The notes under the pieces: generated by a model | Told to the model about the DNA's origin: nothing | Database searches by the model: none | Seen by the model: the letters and a program-made list of their open reading frames with translations, nothing else | Part shown: positions 29,434 through 31,686 of the stretch, piece after piece | Layout: each line of letters begins with the position of its first letter | Position numbering within the stretch: the stretch's first letter is position 1 | Assembly: GCA_016794595.1 (NCBI GenBank) | Contig: JAEUJN010000022.1 | Location: forward strand, 62,001-126,000 | DNA length: 64,000 nt | Source of the DNA: Kineosporiaceae bacterium | Lineage (GTDB): Bacteria; Actinomycetota; Actinomycetes; Actinomycetales; Kineosporiaceae | Direction of reading: 5' to 3' | Position numbers and translations under genes: made by a program

Positions 29434-29832
29434 TCACCAGACGTAGGCGAGGACTTCCCCACCCACGCCCTTCTTGTTCGCCTGCTTGTCGGTCAGCAGC
29501 CCCGAGGACGTCGACAGGATCGCGATCCCCAGGCCACCGAGCACGCGCGGCAGGTTGGTGGACTTGGCGTAGACCCGCAGCCCGGGCTTGCTGATCCGCC
29601 GGATGCCGGCGATCGAGCGCTCACGGTTGGGGCCGAACTTCAAGGTGATCGACAGCGACTTGCCCACCTCGGCGTCGCCCACGTTCCACGCGGCGATGTA
29701 CCCCTCCTGCTGGAGGATCTCGGCGATGTGCGCCTTCAGCTTGCTGTACGGCATCTCGACGGAGTCGTGATAGGCCGAGTTGGCGTTGCGCAGACGCGTC
29801 AGCATGTCTGCGATCGGGTCGGTCATGGTCAT
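29434..29832 (-). CDS. rpsH: 30S ribosomal protein S8 (uS8)
   Basis: 132 aa. [18 protein letters not shown] start and [22 protein letters not shown]-terminal motif. Its ATG overlaps the TGA of the 76-aa ORF upstream by 4 bp (ATGA), so translation of S8 is probably coupled to that ORF. In E. coli S8 is the translational repressor of this operon. Confidence 0.97.
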
Positions 29833-30059
29833 CGGGCTTGCCCGCCCTTCCTCACCGCGGTTTCGCCGGACGAGTCCGTCTCGGCGACCTTCGGCGTAGT
29901 GGTTGCCTTGCTGCTGACAACCTCGCGCAGTGCCTCGTCGAGGTCCTCCGGGTTGATGGTGCTCATCGGGGCGTCGATCAGCGGCATCGGGTGCCGCACC
30001 GTCATCCGCCCGGTGTTCGGGTACTTGCTGCGCAGCCGCACCATCTCCAGGGTGGCCAT
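29829..30059 (-). CDS. Unrecognised 76-aa protein inside the spc operon
   Basis: An extra gene between rpsZ and rpsH. It starts 5 bp after the rpsZ TGA (GGTGAG nearby as ribosome-binding site) and ends in an ATGA overlap with rps[19 protein letters not shown], then [20 protein letters not shown], an acidic helix DEALREVV, and a Thr/Ser/Lys tail. Third codon positions are nearly all G or C, so it is coding. I know no ribosomal protein at this place in the operon and do not recognise the family. There is no membrane segment, and no Cys. Confidence 0.7.
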
Positions 30060-30064
30060 GCCGC

Positions 30065-30250
30065 TCACCAGCTGCTCTTGGTCAGGCCGGGCAGCTCGCC
30101 CCGGTGCGCCATCTCGCGCAGGCAGACCCGGCAGAGCCCGAACTTGCGATAGACCGAGTGCGGCCGACCGCACCGCTGGCAGCGGGTGTAGGCCCGGACC
30201 TTGAACTTCGGCTTGGCGTTGGCCTTGTTGATCAACGCGGTCTTGGCCAC
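30065..30250 (-). CDS. rpsZ: 30S ribosomal protein S14 type Z (uS14)
   Basis: 61-aa short, zinc-binding S14: [20 protein letters not shown] carries both CxxC pairs. Ends [12 protein letters not shown] start at 30250, one base after the rplE stop. Followed by the 76-aa ORF rather than directly by rpsH. Confidence 0.97.
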
Positions 30251-30251
30251 G

Positions 30252-30818
30252 TCAGCTCTCCTTGAACGGGAAACCGAGGTGGCGCAGGAGCGCACGGCCC
30301 TCGTCGTCGGTGGTGGCGGTGGTGACCACGGTGATGTCCATACCGCGGACACGGTCGATCCTGTCCTGGTCGATCTCGTGGAACATCGACTGCTCGTTCA
30401 GGCCGAAGGTGTAGTTGCCGCGCCCGTCGAACTGGTTGGGCGCCAGGCCGCGGAAGTCACGGATCCGGGGCAGCGCGACCGAGAGCAGACGGTCCAGGAA
30501 CTCCCACATCCGGTCGCCCCGCAGCGTCACGTGAGCGCCGATCGGCATACCCTCGCGCAACTTGAACTGGGCGATCGACTTGCGAGCCTTGGTGACCTGC
30601 GGCTTCTGACCGGTGATCGCGGCCAGGTCCTTGATGGCGCCCTCGATCAGCTTGGAGTCGCGGGCGGCCTCGCCGACGCCCATGTTGACCACGATCTTGA
30701 CCAGACCGGGAGTCTGCATGACGTTCGCGTACCCGAACTCGGTGCGCAGGGCGGGGGCGATGTCGCTGCGGTAGCGCTGCTTGAGCCGCGGTCCGCTGGT
30801 GAGTGTTGCTGTGCTCAT
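30252..30818 (-). CDS. rplE: 50S ribosomal protein L5 (uL5)
   Basis: 188 aa, 5S rRNA-binding, contacts P-site t[43 protein letters not shown] and [23 protein letters not shown] are conserved. It lies 2 bp behind rplX. Confidence 0.98.
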
Positions 30819-31592: not shown

Positions 31593-31686
31593 GACCCGAG
31601 AGGCGCAGCCTCTCGGGTCTGCCTGTCTAGCCTTTGACCTTGCTGTCTTCCGGGGGGTCCACGGGGGGCGGAGCCCCCTGTGTGAT
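31593..31686 (-). repeat. Double-hairpin intergenic element (copy 2, rpsQ/rplN)
   Basis: 31593-31604 pairs perfectly with 31608-31619 (12 bp, triloop) and 31660-31669 with 31673-31682 (10 bp, one mismatch, triloop). Same orientation and layout as copy 1 at 21602-21698, with 39 of 43 identical bases over the second hairpin (31644-31686). It marks the S10/spc operon boundary. Confidence 0.65.

Follow-up and report, generated by a model that had tools for sequence, protein, structure and literature searches.

Ribosomal protein S8 is the autogenous repressor of the spc operon of Escherichia coli, where it acts at rplE, and the part of a 2024 review covered here describes phylogenetic studies of autogenous S8/spc control as stalled and the regulation of spc as unknown outside E. 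coli and Vibrio cholerae, including in subtilis (PMC10931766, in part). The S8-binding loop in helix 21 of 16S rRNA contains the base triples A595-(A596-U644) and (G597-C643)-N641 together with an invariant A642, and the equivalent triple in E. coli spc mRNA is A+80-(A+81-U+11) (PMC4176348, in part). The E. coli rplE sequence itself reads AAGUC at +80..+84 and GAAACU at +6..+11. Ribosomal-protein leaders of the same kind as the element described below, and likewise lineage-specific, were reported by Eckert and Weinberg in 2020, with leaders for L17 and L31 in Actinobacteria; the first part of Table 1 of that work lists no S8 leader, and rpsH occurs 0 times in its main text (PMC7247131, in part). 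Our search, confined to open-access papers in PMC, turned up no previous description of an S8 site in front of rpsH in Actinomycetes, which is a weak indication of novelty.

The window analysed here, a stretch of 64,000 nucleotides from a Kineosporiaceae bacterium (GCA_016794595.1, contig JAEUJN010000022.1), carries the S10-spc cluster on its minus strand, and an extra ORF lies on the same strand between rpsZ (S14, zinc type; 30065..30250, stop codon at 30065-30067) and rpsH (S8; 29434..29832, ATG at 29830-29832). The ORF occupies 29829..30059, running from an ATG at 30059 to a TGA at 29829-29831 over 76 sense codons. Its ATG follows the rpsZ stop codon by 5 nt and its TGA forms an ATGA overlap with the rpsH ATG, exactly as the original prediction had described, a placement that would suit translation together with both neighbours, as had also been proposed. 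In the window genome the same frame extends upstream, free of stop codons, as far as a GTG that overlaps the rpsZ stop codon, giving 79 codons, so the start is uncertain, but the ATG is common to five genera. Profile searches of the ORF product against Pfam, NCBIfam and PHROGs matched no family, in agreement with the earlier failure to recognise one.

What the original prediction did not contain is an RNA element in the 3' third of this ORF. Covariance models, covariation and folding delimit a proposed S8 operator of 72 nt directly before rpsH (29827..29898, minus strand), which lies inside the ORF except for its last 2 nt and covers the last third of the ORF together with the rpsH start codon. 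Read along the minus strand, it opens with the 5' strand of an outer stem, P1 (CGCCG, 29892..29896), followed by the first core strand, 5'-AGGUC-3' (29886..29890), equivalent to 16S positions 595-599. A hairpin of variable length (29865..29886), 22 nt here when counted from the C of AGGUC, separates this from the second core strand, 5'-GAAACC-3' (29859..29864), equivalent to 16S positions 639-644, in which A642 is present and N641 is A. The 3' strand of P1 (CGGUG, 29853..29857) pairs with 29892-29896 and abuts the sequence AGGAAGG (29846..29852), whose role as the Shine-Dalgarno region of rpsH we infer. A small hairpin of the form GGGC-loop-GCCC, P3 (29834..29847), lies between this region and the ATG, and all of these parts are on the minus strand.

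The sequence upstream of rpsH was compared in 82 genomes of the order, 13 from the window's own family, Kineosporiaceae (f1), 12 from a second family in which a frame runs through the operator (f15) and 57 from other families; the sample drew on the upstream sequences of 70 of the 117 genomes in which S8 was matched, supplemented by additional genomes of f1 and f15. The pattern common to the order is ACGNCG-NA-GGTC-[variable-length hairpin]-GAA-ACC-N-CGNCG-AGGAAGG-...-ATG, five Kineosporia genomes having GGGAAAGG in place of AGGAAGG. A core of the form AGGTC...GA(A,T)ACC precedes rpsH in 76 of the 82 genomes, a count obtained with a plain pattern akin to the one used to select the alignments below, and the other six (four from f8, two from f19) have AGGCC...GG(A,G)ACC at this position. 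In the latter type a U-A pair is replaced by C-G at 598-640, a compensated change, while A642 and the 596-644 and 597-643 pairs are kept. In all ten f6 and f7 loci (L039, L040, L041, L043, L053, L054, L058, L059, L063 and L069) no zinc-type rpsN was found upstream and an AGGTC...GAAACC core still stands between rplE and rpsH, which indicates that the element goes with rpsH. In the window the ORF fills the rpsZ-rpsH gap, as the original prediction had it; in relatives without the ORF, gaps of 57-181 nt (44 genomes outside f1 and f15 measured) contain the conserved RNA element.

Structural support was drawn from three alignments. A2 consists of 33 of the 75 distinct elements above the score cut, and A4 of 32 elements from which f1 and f15 were excluded, 19 from the order and 13 from class loci; the four AGGCC-type elements of f8 are absent from both. 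Elements of A2 and A4 were chosen by a pattern demanding AGG(T/C)C and ACC, with P1 also scored in the selection, so that the invariance of the core in these alignments is partly built in. The proposed pairs are formed in 96.5% (A2) and 97.4% (A4) of cells, and six pairs in each alignment have changed on both sides, including pairs of P1 and of the inner stem. Covariation scores of 0.285 in A2 (shuffled 0.128) and 0.348 in A4 (shuffled 0.152) were reached by none of 500 shuffles, whereas 46 of 500 shuffles of A2 and 3 of 500 of A4 contained as many pairs with both-side changes. Sliding the partners of A2 by 1-3 columns lowered the pairing to 33-44%. Both-side changes between families occur in four of the five pairs of P1, as in CGUCG/CGACG, CGCCG/CGGCG, CAUCG/CGAUG and CGUUG/CAACG, while P3, paired in 94.7% of A2 cells, has no change on both sides there. 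In A5, which comprises 22 f1 and f15 copies in an alignment fitted to the model, the structure is kept in 96.7% of cells; its covariation is weaker, with shuffles reaching the observed both-side pairs in 68 of 500 trials and the observed pair types in 399 of 500. Minimum-energy folding of the window copy returns the proposed structure, whose stability is only moderately higher than that of shuffled sequences (z -2.51, 2 of 200 shuffles as stable).

Two covariance models were used to follow the element, R1 including the window copy and R2 built without any f1 or f15 sequence. The window copy scored 72.7 bits with R1, and R2 recovered it at 29827-29898 on the minus strand with 59.3 bits (E 2.6e-15). 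R2 also matched all 21 other f1 and f15 loci searched, which together with the window amounts to 10 of 13 f1 genomes and 12 of 12 f15 genomes. At E <= 1e-5, R1 matched 98 of 148 Actinomycetes genomes; in a second draw from the class, R2 at E <= 1e-6 matched 100 of 148, one match in each, rpsH having been found in 142 of these 148. Every one of the 100 R2 matches lies on the same strand as rpsH and ends within 6 nt of its start, 99 overlapping the start by the same 5-nt offset and one ending 6 nt away. The remaining 48 class genomes, f19 among them, had no R2 match. In a draw from the phylum, R1 at E <= 0.01 matched 67 of 149 genomes, and 21 loci outside the class, among the 30 listed, were set aside as noise, there being no S8 gene (rpsH) within the locus. 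By these homology searches the element is established for the class Actinomycetes and not beyond it. Rfam 15 returned only sub-threshold chance matches over positions 29600-30500 of the window, and none up to E 0.1 over 7 loci.

Variant forms were recorded in several families, and at least some of the families unmatched by R2 carry one. The f19 loci L064, L065 and L073 have a deviant upstream sequence with the Shine-Dalgarno region further on, and the f19 genomes in the two class draws are matched by neither R1 nor R2; L073 has AGGTC/GAAACC with a different P1, and L064 and L065 have AGGCC/GGAACC. The AGGCC/GG(A,G)ACC core occurs in L036, L049, L057 and L061 of f8 and also in L167 and L183 of the same class. 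Locus L118 (same class, f22) carries a degenerate copy before rpsH, CAGGTGCG...GGGAACC, which is still matched by R1 and R2; its assignment to the AGGCC type was rejected as an accident of the pattern in a degenerate sequence. In f21 (L115-L117) the rpsZ-rpsH gaps measure 216-226 nt, with lengths out of register by threes and an unusually long operator hairpin.

The letters of the core are those of known S8 sites. AGGUC/GAAACC is identical to the AAGUC/GAAACU of E. coli except for a compensated change from A-U to G-C at 596-644. At N641, 25 of the 32 rows of A4 have A (GAAACC) and the other 7 have U (GATACC), the letters found there in E. coli spc mRNA and in 16S rRNA. The window genome's own 16S rRNA reads GCGUC / GGUACG in both copies found, and the element resembles the helix 21 site in G597-U598-C599, A642, C643 and strand order; it differs in having G-C rather than C-G at 596-644 and, here, A at N641, and in lying in mRNA. 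The element has an asymmetric core loop with helices on both sides and stands at the translation start of an spc gene, the features taken here as marks of an S8 operator. With position, core letters and operon all in agreement, we infer, on the basis of about 11 core letters and the position, that it is an S8 translational operator, through which S8 probably restrains its own synthesis.

Compared with the E. coli spc operator, the element shares the S8 core with one compensated pair, the location at the translation start of an spc gene and the apparent mimicry of helix 21. The E. coli operator is found at rplE, whereas the actinomycete element lies directly before rpsH, and the strand order differs as well, AGGUC coming first as in 16S rRNA, while in E. 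coli GAAAC comes first (+6) and AAGUC second (+80). The outer stem P1 and the small hairpin P3 are the element's own, and in f1 and f15 it is additionally overlaid by a reading frame. The site at rpsH and the strand order, both unlike E. coli, point to an operator of the same kind but of separate origin, and the element was not filed with the E. coli type, which is defined by the rplE start and a GAAAC strand 5' of AAGUC.

The best explanation of the locus, to which we assign a probability of about 0.7, is that an S8 operator and a relay ORF are laid over one another. Free S8 would bind the AGGUC/GAAACC loop, which would mimic the S8 site of 16S helix 21, and S8 on the core would hold P1, which ends exactly at AGGAAGG, so that the ribosome-binding site of rpsH would be locked. 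Repression of rpsH would then extend to the genes behind it by translational coupling, as in E. coli, and P3, between the Shine-Dalgarno region and the ATG, may set the spacing. In f1 and f15, ribosomes leaving rpsZ would read through the operator, unfolding it on the way, and reinitiate at rpsH; such a crossing is possible because the frame coupled to rpsZ contains no stop codon within the operator and terminates at the start of rpsH. The ORF would accordingly serve mainly as a relay, pitting coupled translation from rpsZ against repression by S8, which would control fresh initiation at rpsH between ribosome passages. Counted against such dual control is the consideration that an elongating ribosome would displace S8, and the residues of the f1 product are more conserved than a pure relay requires. 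The earlier suggestion that the ORF may gate S8 thus keeps its link to S8 control, with the difference that the likely gate would be the RNA and not the peptide. Short ORFs that overlap the next start codon and cross a regulatory RNA structure are familiar as translational-coupling or leader ORFs; here, unlike in those systems, two ribosomal-protein cistrons would be coupled, and the structure within the coding sequence would be an rRNA mimic and no attenuator.

The threading of the frame through the operator is seen in both families. In 12 of 12 f15 genomes the frame is open through the operator, with a GTG overlapping the rpsZ stop codon and a length of 29-37 codons, and the residues before the operator are unconserved while the frame is conserved, which suggests that ribosome passage, not a peptide, has been selected there. 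All 25 f1 and f15 genomes have an operator hairpin whose length is 1 mod 3 (19, 22, 25, 37 and 40 nt in f1, 22 nt throughout in f15), and in the 52 of the 57 genomes of other families in which the hairpin could be assigned, lengths of 0, 1 and 2 mod 3 occur in 20, 12 and 20.

The competing reading that survives best, although we hold it to be rather doubtful, makes the product of the ORF a functional small protein with a ribosome-associated or regulatory role, whose gene ends in the operator only incidentally. It draws on part of the coding evidence from Kineosporiaceae, set out here as a whole. An in-frame ORF occupies the rpsZ-rpsH gap in 13 of 13 f1 genomes from six genera, including Kineosporia, which NCBI taxonomy places in Kineosporiaceae, class Actinomycetes; three of these (G003, G008 and G012) were missed by the protein search, and their ORFs were found from the gap sequence. 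The frame starts with ATG in five genera, GTG being the probable start in Kineosporia, and the stop codon overlaps the rpsH ATG or, in the six Kineosporia genomes, the next in-frame ATG. A scan of a named collection with the ORF gave nine loci, four from Kineosporia (K. babensis, K. mesophila and two other species), three from MAGs and two from Mobilicoccus. Protein matches in f15 (G026, G043) and Mobilicoccus (L103, L105) were set aside since only the part overlying the RNA aligns, and those in G022 and G032 since they are located away from rpsZ and rpsH.

Upstream of the operator (29899..30059, minus strand), where family alignments and coding controls place the conserved N-terminal block, the three codon positions have GC contents of 0.60/0.45/0.94, a profile shared with rpsZ, rpsH, rplE and rplF and in line with the GC3-rich composition first noticed. 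In the same part, 14 of 15 Kineosporia pairs give a dN/dS of 0.14-0.45, while the fifteenth has only one synonymous change. For comparisons between genera the ratio is unreliable and uninformative: 32 of 40 pairs give 0.24-0.94, two pairs are saturated, and the window ORF compared with the six Kineosporia sequences gives 1.45-2.52 throughout. The claim of a lineage-specific coding ORF therefore withstood the comparison of gaps and substitution ratios that had been proposed for it, on the strength of the 13 intact frames and the low ratios within Kineosporia. Variable columns in the six Kineosporia sequences fall 8/8/22 by codon position, of 57 each, a third-position excess that is absent from the 18-codon core block (14/10/15). 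As a coding control, nucleotide columns were permuted within codons in 500 trials and in-frame similarity was taken as the BLOSUM mean. None of the 500 permutations reached the value observed between genera (1.92 observed and 0.88 permuted with five genera, 1.77 and 0.74 with six), and 11 of 500 reached the one observed within Kineosporia; the control favours the true frame because the alignment was made on proteins.

The conserved block reads M-A-T-L-E..LRS..P..TG..T-x-R-H..P, and of 16 invariant columns in the whole f1 protein alignment the eight that lie outside the operator are M1, L4, L9, R10, S11, T20, R22 and P26. Judged from these comparisons, the ORF is real and coding, with constraint at the amino-acid level on its N-terminal block. 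AlphaFold2 predicts an N-terminal beta-hairpin with pLDDT of about 80, which would favour a functional protein, but the model as a whole is of low confidence (mean pLDDT 66.5, pTM 0.26), with a helix at 37-49 below pLDDT 70. Against a protein function as the main explanation also stand the f15 frames that persist without the conserved N-terminus, the empty family searches and the conserved C-terminal residues, which are explained by the RNA. We retain the overlaid operator and relay ORF as the preferred account, within which the N-terminal half of the peptide may have a role of its own.

We consider it improbable that the element is a true rpsH leader bound by a factor other than S8, such as another ribosomal protein or an RNase, or that it acts through its initiation fold alone. 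With P1 and P3 on either side of the Shine-Dalgarno region, the fold by itself could tune initiation; yet the letters that are conserved match the S8 core, A or U standing where E. coli spc mRNA and 16S rRNA differ, the 598-640 pair is compensated in 6 of 82 genomes, and the core stays with rpsH in the loci where no rpsN was found upstream. S8 is, moreover, the known repressor of spc in E. coli (PMC10931766, in the part covered here). Least credible by far is a chance open frame in GC-rich DNA with selection on the RNA alone: ORFs of at least 25 codons ending on the rpsH start do occur in 7 of the 44 genomes outside f1 and f15 with a measured gap, but in all 25 f1 and f15 genomes the frame is intact and lengths vary by multiples of three, and gene-like GC by codon position, in-frame similarity and the third-position excess in Kineosporia speak against it.

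Beyond the overlay of operator and relay ORF, the observations can be joined into a broader and more tentative reading, which we place a little short of even: that Actinomycetes control spc through an S8 operator at rpsH of separate origin, that in Kineosporiaceae this operator has been captured by a gene, that S8 and ribosomes race for it and that a new peptide is made. If it is true, the same 72 nucleotides would serve as codons, as an S8-binding rRNA mimic and as a lock on a ribosome-binding site; the output of S8 would depend on whether S8 or a ribosome coming from rpsZ reached the RNA first, and the N-terminal half of the ORF would make a new conserved small protein. An S8 core before rpsH in 100 of 148 Actinomycetes genomes offers a concrete candidate operator for the class. 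An S8 site that had arisen again elsewhere, with its strands reversed in order, would be a clear case of repeated rRNA mimicry, and the dual-coding gene that would run through a ribosomal-protein operator in Kineosporiaceae is unusual and would provide a clean system for competition between ribosome and repressor on one RNA.

Elsewhere in the cluster, the spacer between rpsQ and rplN at the S10/spc boundary contains a perfect 12-bp inverted repeat with a 3-nt loop (31593-31619) and a second inverted repeat of 10 bp and 90% identity (31660-31682), which could be an attenuator or a processing site.
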